From Candidatus Bathyarchaeota archaeon (GTDB lineage: Archaea > Thermoproteota > Bathyarchaeia > 40CM-2-53-6 > RBG-13-38-9), in NCBI GenBank assembly GCA_018396915.1, contig JAGTRD010000004.1, forward strand, positions 2,987-63,722: DNA of 60,736 bases, in the 5' to 3' direction. The notes beneath the pieces are model-generated. The model was not told where the DNA came from and did no database searches. It saw only the letters and a list, made by a program, of their open reading frames with translations. This document shows, in pieces, positions 20,616 through 36,761 of the stretch (positions are counted from its first letter, which is position 1; the number at the start of each line of letters is the position of its first letter). A program made the translations under genes and the position numbers.

Positions 20616-22490
20616 ATGAGAGGTTACGCAGGAAAGTTTCTTGAAGTAGATCTATCCACCGGAAAGATTCAGACGATAAAGCTCAGCGACGACGTATTGA
20701 GAACCTACATTGGTGGCAGGGGTCTAGCTGCAAAGATCCTTTGGGACAGACTAGGCTCCAAATGGGATGAAGTGGACCCGCTGGGTCCAGAGAACATACT
20801 GTTGGTTCTCACAGGCCCCCTCACAGGATATTATCCAGGTGGGAGAACATGCATATCGGGAAAGTCTCCCCAGAGCAACGGAATAGTAGGCTCAACCATA
20901 GCCGGCGAGTTCGGTGTCGAACTGAGGTGTGCAGGATGGGATGGAATAATCATAACTGGAAGAGCTGCCAAACCAAGCTACCTATTCATATTTGACTCAG
21001 ACGTTGAGATAAAGAGCGCTAGACACTTATGGGGTAAGCTCGGGAAAGAGACCCTTAGGATCCTGCTCAAGGAGGGTAGGGCTGAACTCTTCAAGAGGAA
21101 GCCTAGATACGGTGAATGGAAGAATCCTGATGTTTTGTATATCGGCCCAGCAGGTGAGAAGAAGTCGAGAATAGCTGTTGTCAATGGGAAATGGAGCCAC
21201 GCGGCGGGATATGGTGGTTACGGAGGTGTCATGGGCTCAAAGAACTTGAAGGCGATAGTTGCCAAAGGTTCAGGACCCCTCCCTGAAGCCTATGATCCGA
21301 AGAGGACAGCTGAACTTTTGGATAAGGTGTGCAGGGACTGCATGGACAACGATGCTTTCAGAAGGTGGGGCACAGGCTACATAGGCTTCGACGCAGGGAA
21401 CAGGACGAGTTCAGAGCCTGTGAGGAACTGGCAGGAGGAGTGGCATGACAAGAGGACTTTCGCAGCAGATAGGTTTGAGGAGAGGGTCTGGATAAAACGT
21501 TACTGGGGAGACTTCGGATGTCCAACAACATGCTACAAGGTAGGAATGTGCAAGGTAGGCCCATTCAAAGGAGCCATAGACGACAATCCAGACTATGAGT
21601 TGCAAGCATATCTAGGCACAAACCTTGGAATATTCACTCCTGAGGAGAACGTCTATGTGGCAAGTGTGATGGATGATTTGGGCATATGCGGCATCAACGG
21701 TGGAAACGTCCTAGGATTCGCAGGCGAACTATATCAGAGGAAGATTTTGACGAGGAAGGATCTTGGTGGGATATCTTTGAAATGGGGTGACGCAAAGGCC
21801 TTCGCAGCCCTAGCGCATAAAATAGCCCGCAGAGAGGGCATAGGAGACGTCTTGGCCGAAGGGAGTTACAGGGCAGCTTTAAAGTTAGGCAGAAAGAAGA
21901 GGATGGACTTGACAAAGTACGTGGTCCATGGGAAGGCGATAGCGTGTGGGGCTCACGGAATCAGAAGCCACCTAGACTTTCCGACAGACATAGCCTATGC
22001 ATGCTCGGTTCAAGGTGGAGACCACACGTCAGTAGCTCAGCTGCCCCTGGAAGGAGCGAACAGTGAGTTGAGGACCCTCCTCTACGATTCAGGGGTCTTC
22101 TGCTGGTTCAACGTATTTGCAGTCGATGAGCCTATCATCTGGGAGTTTCTCGAAGCAGTCACCGGATGGGGGATAACCAAGGAGGAGTGGTACAGCCGAC
22201 TGGCACCTTCAACAATAAACATTCAAAGAGCCGCCCTGCTCATTGGAGGTCCAGACCTGAAGTGGAGGCCGAGAGAGGACGATGAGAATCCGCCGAGATT
22301 CTATGAACCTCTACCGTCAGGACCAAAGAAGGGTGAGAAGATAGTGTGGGAGAAATTCGATGAGATGAGGAGGGAATACTACCAAGCCCTAGGCTGGGAT
22401 GAGAGGGGGATCCCAAAGACTGAGACGTTGAAGGCTTTGGGTCTAGCAGACGTGGACAGGGTATTGAGGGAGAAGCTCAAAGAAAAGTAA
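20616..22490 (+). CDS. aldehyde:ferredoxin oxidoreductase 1
   Basis: A 624-residue AOR of normal family length. Visible are the N-terminal FLEVDLSTGKI and IGGRGLAAKILWD, PLTGYYPGGRTCISGKSPQSN, the cluster region GCPTTCYKVGMC, and SYRAALKLGRKK. AOR uses a tungsto-bispterin and a [4Fe-4S] cluster to oxidise aldehydes to acids with ferredoxin. The coupled ferredoxin upstream supports this. Aldehyde substrate unknown. A T7 run follows the stop. Confidence 0.9.
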   Translation: MRGYAGKFLEVDLSTGKIQTIKLSDDVLRTYIGGRGLAAKILWDRLGSKWDEVDPLGPENILLVLTGPLTGYYPGGRTCISGKSPQSNGIVGSTIAGEFGVELRCAGWDGIIITGRAAKPSYLFIFDSDVEIKSARHLWGKLGKETLRILLKEGRAELFKRKPRYGEWKNPDVLYIGPAGEKKSRIAVVNGKWSHAAGYGGYGGVMGSKNLKAIVAKGSGPLPEAYDPKRTAELLDKVCRDCMDNDAFRRWGTGYIGFDAGNRTSSEPVRNWQEEWHDKRTFAADRFEERVWIKRYWGDFGCPTTCYKVGMCKVGPFKGAIDDNPDYELQAYLGTNLGIFTPEENVYVASVMDDLGICGINGGNVLGFAGELYQRKILTRKDLGGISLKWGDAKAFAALAHKIARREGIGDVLAEGSYRAALKLGRKKRMDLTKYVVHGKAIACGAHGIRSHLDFPTDIAYACSVQGGDHTSVAQLPLEGANSELRTLLYDSGVFCWFNVFAVDEPIIWEFLEAVTGWGITKEEWYSRLAPSTINIQRAALLIGGPDLKWRPREDDENPPRFYEPLPSGPKKGEKIVWEKFDEMRREYYQALGWDERGIPKTETLKALGLADVDRVLREKLKEK

Positions 22491-29694: not shown

Positions 29695-31572
29695 TTATGG
29701 GACGTTCGGGTATAGGCCCAGCTCGGTCAACTTCTCCTTTGTGGGTACTCCGTTCTCATCCATGCCCCTATGTTTGTAATATGCTTCGATTGCTTTGGTT
29801 ATTCCCTCCACAGTCGGCAGCTTGTAGGCTGACTCACTCGTCGTCTTCGGCTCCTCAAGCAGCCTCCTCGGATGGGCCAGGTCATCCTTCTTAGTTATGC
29901 CATATCTGATGTTGAGGAGTCTGCATAGATGGTAGATCCTCTCCCCTGCCTTGCGGAGTTGCTGCATACTCCAGTTTAGGCCAGTGGCTGCGTTGAAAGT
30001 GTTCAATATGTCGGTCATCGTGTAGTTTGCAAAGAACATGAATTTGCAGTGGCCAAGAGAGTTTACAATGTTGTTCCAGTCCTGGTATATTGCGGTGGTT
30101 ACCTCGGCGTTCTTCCATGACCAACGCTCATCTGGCGGGGCTGTCGGCTTACCCAACTCCGGCAGGACAAGGTTCACGATGAATAGGTGCTGTGGATTGC
30201 CCCTCTCATGGCATGGGCCTCTTGAGGAGTCTGTACAGTAGGCTAGGCCTGCGACGAATGCGGCTCTAGGATCGTGGGCAGCTATCTCGTTACCCTTCTG
30301 CTGGATAGCCCAAGCCTCTGAACCCTTGCCAATAGCTTCCGAGGCTCTCTTTACACCCTCACCGAGCAGCCATCCGAGCTTCGTTTCCCTGAGGCCTATC
30401 CTCCTAACCATCTCCACCATAGCCTCAGCGTTTCCCCACGTCAACTCTAAACCTTCGGTGTCCTCCTTTGTTATGACACCTTTTTCATATGACTCCATAG
30501 CCCAAGCAAGAACTGATCCTAGAGATATTGTGTCCAGAGTATACATGTTGGCTAGGTCGTTTGCCTTACATATAGCGTCTAGGTCGTCGACCATGCAGTT
30601 GAAACCCAGCATGGCAAAGGTCTCATATTCTGGACCTACACTCGTTATGGTCTCGCCCTTCCATCTATACGTGATTTTTCTATGGCATCCAAGTGTACAG
30701 TAGAGGCATGGCCAAGGCTTAGCCTGAAGATACTCTGTATATCTTGGCGCCCCAATGAGTTTAACACCCTCATCCCAGCTTCCGAGCCTCCAGTTCTTTA
30801 TGGGCAGGTTGCCCCTCTCGTTGAAAGGAACTGCTGCGAATGCTGTTCCGTGGGTTCTCATGTTCACACCGCTCTCGTACACCTTCTTGTTTATCTCCTT
30901 GTTCAACTCTGCAAGCCTGTCTGGATCCGCATACTCAACTTCCTTCGAACCTTTAACAGCGACGGCTTTAAGGTTCTTTGAGCCCATGACAGCTCCCATG
31001 CCCGTCCTGCTTGCATATGACCTGTTCTCGTGGCCGATGCACGAGTAGCGTACAAGCCTCTCAGCACCTTGGCCTATACAAGCGACTTGAACGCCTTGCT
31101 CACCAATATCCTTGATCAGTGTGTCATTTGTGTAGTAGGAGTCTTTACCCCAAAGGTATGATGCGTCTCTGAGCTCAGCAGTATCCTCCGTAAGCCAGAG
31201 GTAGGTTGGTTTCTCAGCCTTCCCTTGAAATATTATTGCGTCGTAACCTGTCCTCTTCAGGGTTATGCCGAATGAGCCTGTAGCCGCTGCCTCACCGTTA
31301 ATGTTGCTCAATGGGTTTCTGGCTATGACAGACCATTTCCCCGCCCCTGTCTGAGCTATTCCGTGAAAGATCCCTGTGGCGAATATCAGCCTATTACCTG
31401 GATCGAATGGACCGACATCCGCTGGAACCTCATGGTAGAGGAATCTATGGCCGAGCCCAGGTCCGCCGAGGAAGTATTCATATACTATGTCAGGCACCTC
31501 TTCCGTAGTGATCTTCTTCTTTGTCAGGTCTACCCTCAGAATTCTGTTCCATACACCCTTCATTATTTTCAC
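29695..31572 (-). CDS. aldehyde:ferredoxin oxidoreductase 2
   Basis: A 625-residue AOR with the standard regions: RVDLTKKKITTEEVPD, FLGGPGLGHRFLYHEVP, SFGITLKRTGYDAI, the cluster cysteines PCLYCTLGCHRK (C-x2-C-x3-C as in Pyrococcus AOR), and YCTDSSRGPCHERGN. It is only distantly like AOR 1 and has no ferredoxin gene beside it; a MoaD-like gene precedes it in the same direction. It probably oxidises a different aldehyde or serves a pterin-poor condition. Confidence 0.9.
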   Translation of the reverse strand: MKIMKGVWNRILRVDLTKKKITTEEVPDIVYEYFLGGPGLGHRFLYHEVPADVGPFDPGNRLIFATGIFHGIAQTGAGKWSVIARNPLSNINGEAAATGSFGITLKRTGYDAIIFQGKAEKPTYLWLTEDTAELRDASYLWGKDSYYTNDTLIKDIGEQGVQVACIGQGAERLVRYSCIGHENRSYASRTGMGAVMGSKNLKAVAVKGSKEVEYADPDRLAELNKEINKKVYESGVNMRTHGTAFAAVPFNERGNLPIKNWRLGSWDEGVKLIGAPRYTEYLQAKPWPCLYCTLGCHRKITYRWKGETITSVGPEYETFAMLGFNCMVDDLDAICKANDLANMYTLDTISLGSVLAWAMESYEKGVITKEDTEGLELTWGNAEAMVEMVRRIGLRETKLGWLLGEGVKRASEAIGKGSEAWAIQQKGNEIAAHDPRAAFVAGLAYCTDSSRGPCHERGNPQHLFIVNLVLPELGKPTAPPDERWSWKNAEVTTAIYQDWNNIVNSLGHCKFMFFANYTMTDILNTFNAATGLNWSMQQLRKAGERIYHLCRLLNIRYGITKKDDLAHPRRLLEEPKTTSESAYKLPTVEGITKAIEAYYKHRGMDENGVPTKEKLTELGLYPNVP

Positions 31573-32697: not shown

Positions 32698-34305
32698 ATG
32701 ATATGGATGGCTGAGATAGTCATTAAACCTCACGATAGGAAGGCTATATTGAATGTTGGCCGTACCATCCTATCATATCTTCAGGAGCTCGACGTTGACA
32801 TCGATGCTTCATGCGGTGGCAGGGGGGTATGCGGCAAATGTCTGGTCAAGGCTCTTCCAGATGAAAGTTTAGCTCCACCCACCGAGGCTGAGAGGAGACT
32901 TGCAAAGCCAGGCTTCAGACTTGCATGCCAAGCGAGGATTCTGAGAGACGACCAGAACCTTCAGGTTGAAGTCCCAACGTATGCCATATACAAGATTTTA
33001 GGGAGGGGGGTCGTCAAGCCTGTACCTCTCAACCCCCCTGTATTGAGACGATTTACCCCTGAGGGTGAGAAGGTCTACTGGAGAAATGTTATGGTCGACG
33101 AGTATCGGGGTGAGATTTACGGGTTAGCCCTGGATGTTGGAACTACAACCTTAGCTATGTACTGGGTAAACTTGGAGACAGGTGTTGTTGAACACATATC
33201 TTCAATGCTCAACCCCCAGATCAGGTATGGCGACAATGTCATCGACAGGATAAATTATGCGAGGATGGGTAGGCAGATGGACTTGGAGAATGCTGTCCGA
33301 GGCGGGGTCAACCAGATGATCTTGCAGAGGCCTATAAATCCAGACCACATCTACGAAGTCGCAGTCGTCGGTAATACGGTTATGAGGGATCTGTTCATAG
33401 GCCATCCCGTCAGCCAGATGGGCGAGGCTCCCTTCGAACCTCTAAGCACAAGCCCAGTGAATAAGTCTGCGGGAGAGTTGGGTTTGAAGGTGAACAGGGC
33501 TGCAAACGTCTACGCTTTACCTCTGATAGGCCACTTCGTAGGTGCAGACGCCTTGGCGGTGATCCTGGCCACTGAGATGCATCTCAGCCGGGAGGTTGTG
33601 ATGGCGATCGATATTGGAACGAACACTGAGATAGCTGTTGGATGTGAGGATGGAATAATGGTGACCTCATGTGCCTCTGGACCTGCTTTTGAAGGTTCAG
33701 GTGTAAAGTGTGGGATCGGAGCCGTTGAAGGAGCCATCCAGAGCGTTGAGATAGCTGAAGACCTGAAGGTAAAATATGAGACTATAGGTGGTGCACCGCC
33801 CATAGGGATCTGTGGATCCGGTCTGATAGACCTTCTGGCCCAGATGCTTGATAGGGGGGTAATCGATTGGAGGGGAAGATTCACATCTGGAAGAGGGAGG
33901 CTCATAATAGTCGGGGATAATGGGCGGATATTCATAGATGGGGAGGATATAGACAATTTGAAGCTTGCGAAATCGGCTATAAACGTCGGCGCCAAGGCTC
34001 TGATGAAACATTACGGCGTCAAGGTGAAGGATATAAGTAGGCTGTATCTGGCTGGCGCCTTCGGAAACTACATAAATCCAATGAACGCGGTCAAAATAGG
34101 AATGTTACCGAACATACCGTTGAAGAAGATTGTGAAGGTTGGGAATGCAGCCATTGAAGGCGCGAGGGAGGTTCTGGTCTCCCAAGAGAAGAGGAATGAG
34201 GCTGAGAAGATCCCTAGCAAGACAAGACATCTCAGGCTTGAGGTTGAGGAGGACTTCCATGACATGTTCATCCAAGGACTCTCTTTCAGCAGATACAGAT
34301 CCTAG
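32698..34305 (+). CDS. RACo-like ATP-dependent corrinoid reductive activator
   Basis: A 535-residue protein. Residues 5-100 hold a plant-type [2Fe-2S] ferredoxin (CGGRGVCGKC and a distal LACQARI). From about 150 there is an ASKHA-type domain with LALDVGTTTLAMYWV, DIGTNTEIAVG, and LYLAGAFGNYINP. RACo/RamA proteins reduce inactive Co(II) corrinoid to Co(I) with ATP, restarting corrinoid methyltransferases. It converges with the DUF166-corrinoid operon and shares a CTAG stop with its last gene, which points to service of that corrinoid protein. Confidence 0.88.
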   Translation: MIWMAEIVIKPHDRKAILNVGRTILSYLQELDVDIDASCGGRGVCGKCLVKALPDESLAPPTEAERRLAKPGFRLACQARILRDDQNLQVEVPTYAIYKILGRGVVKPVPLNPPVLRRFTPEGEKVYWRNVMVDEYRGEIYGLALDVGTTTLAMYWVNLETGVVEHISSMLNPQIRYGDNVIDRINYARMGRQMDLENAVRGGVNQMILQRPINPDHIYEVAVVGNTVMRDLFIGHPVSQMGEAPFEPLSTSPVNKSAGELGLKVNRAANVYALPLIGHFVGADALAVILATEMHLSREVVMAIDIGTNTEIAVGCEDGIMVTSCASGPAFEGSGVKCGIGAVEGAIQSVEIAEDLKVKYETIGGAPPIGICGSGLIDLLAQMLDRGVIDWRGRFTSGRGRLIIVGDNGRIFIDGEDIDNLKLAKSAINVGAKALMKHYGVKVKDISRLYLAGAFGNYINPMNAVKIGMLPNIPLKKIVKVGNAAIEGAREVLVSQEKRNEAEKIPSKTRHLRLEVEEDFHDMFIQGLSFSRYRS

Positions 34306-35282
34306 AATCGGCTCGGTGCAGGTTTCAGTCGGCCATCGACCTTAATGATCCTACCCTCCTTAATCAATTCCTCAACATATAGGCGGAATGTTCTGTTGGC
34401 TTCACACAGTTTGTCTGTGTTCGCCCAGTCCCCAGGCTTTCCAACAACTTTCTCCTCCAACCTATCAACATCGACTTCCCCACCTTCAACGATCTCTTTT
34501 AGAATAATTTCTTTGGCGGTTGGCCAACCGCAAGCCTCGAATATAGCGTCTTTGAGAAGGTCTCCCGCCTGCTGCATCAGGGGGCAAGCAGGATCCATCT
34601 CCGCAAGACAGTAGTTCTCAGCGTTCTCGTTATGGTGCTCCTCATAGATCTTCCTTAGGAGGAGCTCTCTGTCGATATATGGGAAACCCACAAGTTTCTG
34701 GGCTACTGCTGAGGCTGTTCCGCTGGGTGTATCCCTCAGGACTTGGATCGACCTTATCACCTTCTTATCCTCATCGAGTGTTATCTTGAATCTTGGTCTA
34801 CCGAAACTCTTTGCAAACTCGGCTATGACTTCGTTTTCACTTCTGTCCAATGCGCAGAAGGGTTCAGGAAATTCTATATACACACCCATCCTCTCGAGGT
34901 CTTCCTGAATTGTTCTCTTTGCTTCAGGGGCCATAGCCCTATCGTCTATAGGGTAAAGTACAGCTTTGACCCTCAACCTTCTTGCTATAGGAGGGATCAA
35001 GTCTCCAAGTTTAGGATGTATACCGAGAACCAGGAGAAGGTCAGACTCAATAGTAGGTAGGTCTGCTGGAACATATTTTTCAGGCTCCTCCCATAACTTC
35101 GACAAGAGATCCCCATTTGAAGGATGTATCTCAAGTATAGTTTCAGGCTTCAACTCGTATACGCCGAATATCTTGTCAGCGAAACCTTTCATGGCGAGGT
35201 TGTTGACAACCTGCTCGCCGAATGGACCCCTATATAGTATGTATATCCTCATATCGGCCAGCCCCCACACTGCACGCATCAA
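34302..35282 (-). CDS. DUF166 family protein 1
   Basis: A 326-residue DUF166 protein. It shares with the second copy YIEFPEPFCALD, RFKITLDEDKKVIRSIQVLRDTPSGT, and QKLVGFPYI. Its own YCLAEMDPACPLMQQ gives two more cysteines. DUF166 is sometimes called putative thymidylate synthase, but no function is established. The conserved cysteines and the corrinoid neighbour suggest a role in corrinoid or methyl chemistry (inference). It is the last gene of the operon, 85 bases after the corrinoid gene. Confidence 0.75.
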   Translation of the reverse strand: MMRAVWGLADMRIYILYRGPFGEQVVNNLAMKGFADKIFGVYELKPETILEIHPSNGDLLSKLWEEPEKYVPADLPTIESDLLLVLGIHPKLGDLIPPIARRLRVKAVLYPIDDRAMAPEAKRTIQEDLERMGVYIEFPEPFCALDRSENEVIAEFAKSFGRPRFKITLDEDKKVIRSIQVLRDTPSGTASAVAQKLVGFPYIDRELLLRKIYEEHHNENAENYCLAEMDPACPLMQQAGDLLKDAIFEACGWPTAKEIILKEIVEGGEVDVDRLEEKVVGKPGDWANTDKLCEANRTFRLYVEELIKEGRIIKVDGRLKPAPSRF

Positions 35283-35366
35283 CCTTTTTTAATTGCAGGT
35301 AGGATTCTGCCTCATGCCTGACGAATCATCCATCGAACTCATCAGTTGATAGGTTTAATTTATATC

Positions 35367-36011
35367 TCAAGGGTTGATGAATGAAAGGCACTTCTTCAAC
35401 CCGTCTATGCAATCCCTACCGTAAGCGTCTACACCTATCTTCTCAGCAAAATTCTCAGTCACAGCCCTTCCACCGATTATAATCTTAACCTTGTCCCTGA
35501 GATTCATCCTCTTCAACTCTTCAACAACCTCACTCATATATGATACTGTTGAGGTCAAGAGGGAGGACATTCCAAGAATCTCAGGCTTGAACTCCTTAAC
35601 CTTTGCTGCAAAATCCTCCTTAGCTACGTCTACACCGAGGTCGATGACCTCAAATCCATTTGACTCAAGCATTATGGAGAATATTGCTTTACCGATGTCG
35701 TGTACGTCACCCTTCACCGTCCCAACCACAACCCGACCCCTCGCCCTCAATGATCTCTTGAAGTGAGGTTTGAGAACCTCTATGGCTCTCTTCATATTTC
35801 TACCAGCGACTATCAAGTCTGAGGTGAAGTATCTTTTGAAAGATTCACTCTCGTAACCTCTACCTATCTCCTCCAGACCCATAGAGAGGTCCTCAAATAT
35901 TCTGTAGGGGTCCGTTCCCTCCCCTAATCTCTTCACACAGTAATCCCTGATCTTACGTCCTCCAAAGTCGAGTAGAACCTCCAAGATCACATCTAAATCT
36001 TTTTTTGGCAT
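35367..36011 (-). CDS. corrinoid protein (MtbC/MtmC-like)
   Basis: A 214-residue corrinoid protein: N-terminal helical cap (about 90 residues, RKIRDYCVKRLGEGT), then a B12-binding Rossmann domain with GTVKGDVHDIGK (the DxHxxG cobalt-binding histidine), MSSLLTSTVSYM and IIGGRAVTENF. It carries a methyl group between a methyltransferase and an acceptor. No methyltransferase gene adjoins it; it lies seven bases after one DUF166 gene and before another. The RACo-like protein is encoded on the opposite strand downstream. Confidence 0.9.
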   Translation of the reverse strand: MPKKDLDVILEVLLDFGGRKIRDYCVKRLGEGTDPYRIFEDLSMGLEEIGRGYESESFKRYFTSDLIVAGRNMKRAIEVLKPHFKRSLRARGRVVVGTVKGDVHDIGKAIFSIMLESNGFEVIDLGVDVAKEDFAAKVKEFKPEILGMSSLLTSTVSYMSEVVEELKRMNLRDKVKIIIGGRAVTENFAEKIGVDAYGRDCIDGLKKCLSFINP

Positions 36012-36017
36012 AAGGCT

Positions 36018-36761
36018 TCAACTCTGAGCTTCAATATTATTCGTTGAGGATGCTCTTAACAGAGATTCTTCGACTGTGCCACTCATTATCTTCGCCGCCT
36101 CATGTATCAAAGACCTTCCATATTGGGGCACCTCAACCTTGGATGCTAGGCATGGATAAAGTTGTGTGAGGAGGCCAGCCCTTGACGACGCTTCATTCAC
36201 CCTCAATCCGACAAGCCTCTCAGCTATAAAGTATGTGGCTCCGCAAGGTGAGCTACGCAACACATCTACCCTGCTTATCACCTCATTCCTCAGGGTGATC
36301 AGAAGCTTCGGCTTGCCAAACCTCTCTGCGAAGAGCCTGATGCAGTCATTGTTTACATTATCTTGGAGCGAGCATAGGGGTTTTGGAAAGGTGTAGGCAA
36401 CGCCCAATTCAACAAGCCTCTCAGAAACCTGCCTAATCAACCCTGACGGTACCCAATCATGATTGTCCACCGGACAGATAACCGAACTGGCCATCGTAGC
36501 TTCGGCGATCTCTGGGAGGATGGCTGCGACTGTTGGATGCTCCCCAAGAGAAAGAATTAGGTCGCAACGTGGAAGCTTGGGAATTACACTCTTAGGATCC
36601 TCCACTGGGTCTGGAAGCTTGTTTGGAAACTCGCAGACCTCAAGATTCCAGCCTTCAGGGAGCTTTCCCTTAATATTTGATACTATTCTATGACCGTAAA
36701 ATCCTTGAATCAGTGCACAGATGGATAGTTTCCGGTTTGTAACCATGCAGATCATCTTCAA
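36018..36761 (-). CDS. DUF166 family protein 2
   Basis: A 247-residue DUF166 protein with LSLGEHPTVAAILPEI, FPKPLCSLQDNV, DVLRSSPCGATYFIAERLVG and LYPCLASKV. It is shorter than the first copy at the C-terminus and keeps the FPxPxC and YPC cysteines. It is the first gene of a likely operon with the corrinoid protein. Function unknown. Confidence 0.75.
   Translation of the reverse strand: MKMICMVTNRKLSICALIQGFYGHRIVSNIKGKLPEGWNLEVCEFPNKLPDPVEDPKSVIPKLPRCDLILSLGEHPTVAAILPEIAEATMASSVICPVDNHDWVPSGLIRQVSERLVELGVAYTFPKPLCSLQDNVNNDCIRLFAERFGKPKLLITLRNEVISRVDVLRSSPCGATYFIAERLVGLRVNEASSRAGLLTQLYPCLASKVEVPQYGRSLIHEAAKIMSGTVEESLLRASSTNNIEAQS

Follow-up and report, generated by a model that had tools for sequence, protein, structure and literature searches.

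The four neighbouring genes studied here lie in a stretch of 60,736 nucleotides (the window) from a Candidatus Bathyarchaeota archaeon, a Bathyarchaeia metagenome-assembled genome (MAG) of 1.63 Mb that is 96% complete. They code for a stand-alone corrinoid protein of the methyltransferase type (CORR), a RACo-like activator and two proteins with the DUF166 domain, one of them short (DUF166S) and the other with a C-terminal extension (DUF166L). It is well supported that these genes are linked, as a unit, to those of the carbon monoxide dehydrogenase/acetyl-CoA synthase (CODH/ACS). The reading that we favour, and that we advance tentatively, is that they provide archaeal CODH/ACS with an accessory module for corrinoid-based methyl transfer, in which DUF166L may move methyl groups by means of its cysteine thiolates.

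Linkage of DUF166L, CORR and RACo with CODH/ACS genes

In phylogenetic analyses, DUF166L forms a single clade (support 100, 16 rows) that spans Bathyarchaeia and Methanomicrobia. The CORR gene is adjacent to that of DUF166L in 14 of the 15 genomes whose contigs allow the test, and a RACo gene is found at the DUF166L locus in 12 of 16 genomes. Our sample consists of MAGs or assemblies, the counts rest on related genomes, and gene calls are noisy in the high-GC loci of methanogens. Besides being neighbours, the two proteins occur together: among 151 Bathyarchaeia genomes, ten contain DUF166L, ten contain an orthologous CORR and nine contain both (Fisher p about 1e-12, a value that is optimistic given the relatedness of the genomes). 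Orthologues of CORR were counted at 335 bits or more; several of the high scorers belonged to the profile, but those of genomes G070 and G094 did not. The two genomes that break the co-occurrence are incomplete (74% and 77%). The module is split in genus g4, with CORR and RACo as a convergent pair on one contig (G070 and G094); G094 keeps both halves, with DUF166L on a different contig, which argues for a shared function beyond synteny.

Of the 16 genomes with DUF166L, 12 have CODH/ACS genes, as named by NCBIfam, in the stretch that contains it (loci L034-L036, L039, L041 and L043 from Bathyarchaeia, and L091, L093-L095, L170 and L176 from Methanomicrobia). In the Bathyarchaeia loci L034/L087, and L036 with L037, the gene order is cdhA-cdhB-cdhC-cdhD-cdhE-cooC-like-DUF166S-CORR-DUF166L, followed by a convergent RACo gene; in L039/L086, L041/L089 and L043/L090, CORR-DUF166L is found with the cdh genes on the opposite side. 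Likewise, four MAGs labelled as Methanoregulaceae or Methanomicrobiales (L091, L093, L094 and L095) contain cdhD/E-CORR-DUF166L and a convergent RACo gene, and this arrangement appears in two more Methanomicrobia genomes (L170, and L176 plus L097). A cooC-like gene is also in view at L091, L093 and L094, L095 being a short contig; we named cooC-like genes from matches to MinD/ArsA-type P-loop proteins and from their position, without a CooC-specific model. The presence of DUF166 also tracks that of CdhC in the 151-genome class sample, with CdhC in 47 of the 50 genomes that contain DUF166 versus 55 of the 101 that do not (p 2e-7, in a test that ignores kinship).

The genome of the window also contains CODH/ACS genes, located away from the module and split between contig 1 (cdhA/cdhB, L184) and contig 11 (cdhC-cdhD-cdhE, L098). 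In a congener (G076, contig 130, 9586-10330), cdhC is interrupted, giving two separate matches, and has an in-frame TAG. A gene for an archaeal thymidylate synthase, or a BLAST relative of it, adjoins DUF166 or lies near the module in three loci from Bathyarchaeia, L054 (8476-9201), L005 and L039.

Organization of the gene cluster in the window

The four genes (Table 1) are arranged as described in the initial annotation, that is, as a DUF166-corrinoid-DUF166 operon converging on a RACo-like gene. The three minus-strand genes show operon-like spacing, with a gap of 6 bp between DUF166S and CORR, and the RACo-like and DUF166L genes overlap tail to tail by 4 bp at their stop codons. Translation of DUF166L likely starts at the Met at 35252, a start that is kept in its relatives.

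Table 1. The four genes of the cluster, with positions in the window. The gathering cut-off of PF02593 (DUF166) is 24.4 bits.
Gene	Coordinates	Strand	Product	Domains
RACo-like	32698-34305	+	535 aa	PF00111, PF17651 and PF14574, above cut-offs
DUF166L	34302-35282	-	326 aa	PF02593 (113.8 bits); DUF166 domain and C-terminal helical/winged-helix-like extension
CORR	35367-36011	-	214 aa	PF02607 and PF02310 (B12-binding_2 and B12-binding)
DUF166S	36018-36761	-	247 aa	PF02593 (182.7 bits)

The deduced activator contains an N-terminal [2Fe-2S] domain (Fer2, CGGRGVCGKC...C), a RACo middle domain and an ASKHA RACo C-terminal domain, and its nearest solved structure is that of RACo (3zyy, E 1.8e-77). We call it RACo-like because the RACo linker domain (PF17650) gave no match at E 1e-3; its best NCBIfam model, the AcsV equivalog NF040756, scored 341.3 bits, under the cut-off of 800. 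The linker domain is present in a second RACo of the same genome, on contig 22. The module resembles RACo/AcsV and CoFeSP of the bacterial acs operon in that a RACo-type activator, with Fer2, middle and ASKHA domains, is found beside CODH/ACS, but differs in its association with archaeal cdhABCDE, in a RACo with no detected linker, and in the extra stand-alone corrinoid protein and the DUF166 proteins.

The cobamide-binding motif of CORR is intact and of the base-off/His-on type (D-x-H-x-x-G, here DVHDIG, followed by S-x-L and G-G), being invariant in 13 aligned orthologues, and its nearest solved structures are 4jgi, 7xcn and 1y80. CORR scored at most 159.9 bits against the curated NCBIfam equivalogs for MtgC, MtbC and MtaC, versus a cut-off of 370, and constitutes a separate orthologous group, whose members reach at least 335 bits while the next paralogue scores 243.

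As the initial annotation also indicated, we found no known methyltransferase near these genes. Neither DUF166 protein matched the UroD, MttB or Pterin_bind/MeTr families of Pfam and NCBIfam, and phmmer searches of the window with seven UroD/MttB-type methyltransferases of the same genome, its Pterin_bind protein and CdhD/CdhE did not retrieve any homologue. Four-part corrinoid demethylase systems are composed of two methyltransferases (MT1 and MT2), a corrinoid protein and an activating enzyme, as in MtgB/MtgC/MtgA from Bathyarchaeia (PMC10989822). Like the Mtg-type systems, the cluster in the window pairs an MtgC/MtbC-type corrinoid protein with an ATP-dependent activator; unlike them, it contains DUF166 proteins instead of UroD, MttB, MtgA or Pterin_bind proteins, and it belongs to a module linked to CODH/ACS.

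The genome encodes 11 B12-binding proteins, nine of which are, like CORR, methyltransferase-type corrinoid proteins that stand alone. Apart from CORR itself there are eight of these. For seven of them, which are distributed over six loci, the cassette includes a gene of the UroD or MttB family (two proteins on contig 16, two on contig 12, and one each on contigs 1, 17 and 6; UroD genes were checked locus by locus), and the cassette of the eighth, near the end of contig 12, is truncated there. None but CORR is accompanied by DUF166. In the whole genome, we found one Pterin_bind protein, of the DUF6513/DUF4346 type, and one MttB. The genome is thus rich in corrinoid cassettes, and some of those with UroD- or MttB-type methyltransferases, at the six loci above (L099-L104), lie beside transporters.

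Conserved cysteines and predicted fold of the DUF166 proteins

DUF166S and DUF166L are old, divergent paralogues, showing 37% identity over 138 aa and grouping in separate clades of the tree. DUF166S has three cysteines, Cys130 (FPxPFC), Cys173 (PCG) and Cys204 (YPCxA), that are shared without exception by the 46 short-type proteins from Bathyarchaeia (46/46) and by the 26 short forms from Methanomicrobia (26/26). All 16 DUF166L proteins have the first and the third of them, and 10 of the 16 also have the second. The conserved FPxPxC cysteine that the initial annotation noted in both DUF166 proteins was thus borne out, together with a third cysteine (YPC/YC) that both share; in the window, the PCG cysteine occurs only in DUF166S. 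A selenoprotein form of the family has been catalogued (DfsP, NF041372), which fits with reactive thiols, and in the open-access literature we found DUF166 only in selenoprotein lists. The two DUF166 proteins of the window scored 33.3 and 80.8 bits against the DfsP model, far under its cut-off of 200. DUF166L has the same domain and conserved cysteines as DfsP, but belongs to a separate clade, contains the C-terminal extension and has lost the second cysteine in some of its members.

AlphaFold2 (AF2) models of both proteins, with mean predicted local distance difference test (pLDDT) values of 91.1 for DUF166S and 90.8 for DUF166L, are alpha/beta structures with a Rossmann-like N-terminal half and without a TIM barrel. 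Foldseek searches with these models yielded only weak Rossmann similarities (best E 5e-4, template modelling (TM) score 0.33), with no barrel among the best hits, and DUF166 had no sequence match in the PDB. The possibility that DUF166 has, unrecognized, the fold of a known methyltransferase was not supported by sequence, AF2 models or Foldseek.

The C-terminal extension of DUF166L (window positions 34305-34562) comprises around 80 residues and has conserved cysteines. The H-H-H-E-E order of its predicted elements suggests a winged helix; its assignment to a known winged helix was dropped, because the extension has no sequence match in the PDB.

A possible role in methyl transfer

A RACo-type activator together with a base-off corrinoid protein signifies methyl-transfer chemistry through Co(I), based on the Co(I)/Co(III) couple. 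We consider DUF166L as a candidate methyl-transfer protein because the cluster lacks a methyltransferase and CdhDE is encoded next door in relatives, which makes this the simplest reading. We infer that methyl transfer is the reaction, and also its direction, its partner and the role of the cysteines. In the proposed mechanism, CORR would carry a bound cobamide cycling between Co(I) and CH3-Co(III), and RACo would use ATP and its [2Fe-2S] cluster to bring CORR, and possibly also CdhDE, the corrinoid protein of CODH/ACS, back from Co(II). DUF166L, aided by DUF166S in the family of the window, would take the slot of a UroD- or MttB-type methyltransferase, and its invariant cysteine thiolates might shuttle methyl groups between CORR and a second carrier or donor, for which CdhDE or a small methyl donor is the most likely candidate. 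The outcome would be an exchange of methyl groups between CODH/ACS and CORR.

Several observations weigh against this proposal. Archaeal CdhDE is thought to take the methyl group from methyl-tetrahydromethanopterin (methyl-H4MPT) without any extra enzyme, and DUF166 shows no catalytic resemblance to any known methyltransferase, with its Foldseek similarity being weak and Rossmann-like. In addition, the second cysteine of DUF166L is replaced by Ser or Gly in 6 of 16 proteins, including that of the window (Ser). In the split module of genus g4, the contigs of G070 and G094 that carry the CORR-RACo pair have no DUF166 gene, which argues that these two are the tighter pair, with a closer bond to each other than either has to DUF166L. 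Conversely, G091, of the same genus (74% complete), contains DUF166S and DUF166L beside CODH/ACS and a cooC-like gene, and we found in this genome neither an adjoining CORR or RACo gene nor a close CORR.

CODH/ACS is central to the oldest proposed carbon-fixation pathway, and methyl entry in archaea has been considered settled, occurring directly from methyl-H4MPT. In two archaeal lineages that are far apart, CODH/ACS is accompanied by a conserved additional corrinoid protein, the activator of that protein and two DUF166 proteins, which indicates that this picture of methyl entry is incomplete. This also gives a functional context to Pfam family DUF166, which formerly had none, with the two DUF166 proteins of the module probably being methyl movers or handlers at CODH/ACS by a route not yet described.

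DUF166 beyond the module and alternative functions

The main rival explanation, which we consider rather unlikely, is that DUF166 proteins help to mature CODH/ACS as thiol-based metallochaperones or assembly factors, acting beside CooC in nickel or Fe-S insertion into the A- and C-clusters or in cobamide loading, and that CORR and RACo make up a separate corrinoid unit within the shared operon. This agrees with the three invariant cysteines, with the tracking of CdhC by DUF166 and with G091, where the DUF166 pair stays with CODH/ACS-cooC and CORR and RACo are not there. Moreover, short DUF166 genes without CORR adjoin CODH/ACS in several families of Bathyarchaeia (L038, L053, L054 and L057), and directly follow cooC-like or cdhE genes in the first three. 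However, 55 of 102 genomes with CODH/ACS lack DUF166, DUF166L follows CORR more faithfully (9/10 genomes) than expected for such a factor, and neither Foldseek nor PDB sequence searches found a solved metallochaperone with the DUF166 fold.

The wider distribution of the family led us to reject DUF166 in general as a corrinoid partner, since the 46 short-type proteins from Bathyarchaeia and 28 loci from Methanomicrobia are mostly without CORR. The initial annotation had suggested that DUF166 proteins may be the methyl-donor or acceptor enzymes of the corrinoid system or handle its cofactor; a partnership with CORR and the activator is supported for DUF166L, given its adjacency to and co-occurrence with CORR in two lineages, but not for the family, most of whose genes lie away from corrinoid genes of the CORR kind, a distribution that the annotation itself had set against its proposal. 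It recognized the corrinoid and RACo context in the neighbourhood and missed the main one, the CODH/ACS operon. HerA, NurA and a NUDIX gene show conserved synteny with the short DUF166 gene at L040, L042 and L068-L072; this arrangement is limited to one family group of Bathyarchaeia, and we saw no functional link.

The short DUF166 proteins from Methanomicrobia form a clade of their own, set apart by a long branch (2.04 changes per column). Within their 28 loci, we found nearby genes for the arsenite efflux protein ACR3 (20 loci), ArsP/SaoE-like permeases (14), an MtrA-like corrinoid subunit (7) and HgcA (6), as well as ArsR, ArsC and ArsM. For example, L147 (7117-12168) contains genes for a permease, DUF166, ACR3, an MtrA-like protein, HgcC and HgcA, all on one strand and with overlapping ends; arsenic genes also surround short DUF166 genes at L149, L151, L153, L157, L160 and L163. 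HgcA is a corrinoid mercury methylase with kinship to CdhE, and the clusters that encode it resemble the module in having a CdhE-related corrinoid protein near a DUF166 gene, but their DUF166 is of the short, arsenic-operon type and no CODH/ACS or RACo gene was seen adjoining. The hgcAB genes have been linked to arsenic genes (PMC10349881), and we found no mention of DUF166 in this connection in the open-access literature.

These associations, the relationship of HgcA with CdhE and the existence of the seleno form DfsP would agree with an improbable second alternative, whereby the DUF166 cysteines bind As(III) or another soft metal(loid) for its methylation or demethylation with a corrinoid protein, and the form linked to CODH/ACS adds to the methyl pool or draws on it. 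Against this, we saw no arsenic gene beside DUF166L or among the annotated neighbours of DUF166 in Bathyarchaeia, and the arsenic-linked clade is the one on the long branch. A broader interpretation, which we regard as distinctly doubtful, is that DUF166 defines a new non-TIM-barrel family of cysteine-thiolate, corrinoid-dependent methyl-transfer proteins, with DUF166L acting between CORR and CODH/ACS and its arsenic-operon relatives acting on metal(loid)s beside MtrA-like proteins or HgcA.

It is very unlikely that the module serves for methyl outflow, with CORR taking the methyl group from CdhDE and DUF166L passing it to a biosynthetic acceptor: the hydrogenotrophic Methanomicrobia that carry the module are not known as users of methyl substrates, which would suit this idea, but DUF166L has no consistent link with any biosynthetic enzyme and DUF166 matches no methionine synthase family. 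A precedent exists in the methionine synthases MesB/MesC, predicted to take methyl groups from CdhDE, with mesB found with CODH/ACS genes (PMC7857596).

Genomic surroundings of the module in the window

The nearest named relative of the genome is a Bathyarchaeota MAG, whose DUF166L shows 89% identity, and the next is a Hecatellales MAG. The module is flanked by genes for aldehyde ferredoxin oxidoreductase (AFOR), an iron-containing alcohol dehydrogenase (Fe-ADH), MoaD-like and Lrp/AsnC-like proteins and an ATP-binding cassette (ABC) transporter, and by what was identified by eye as an A-type ATPase cluster. These flanking genes are common only to the congener locus L033 and look unrelated to the module. 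The window contains two AFOR paralogues (20616-22490 and 29695-31572), one with an upstream 4Fe-4S ferredoxin gene and the other adjoining a MoaD-like gene.

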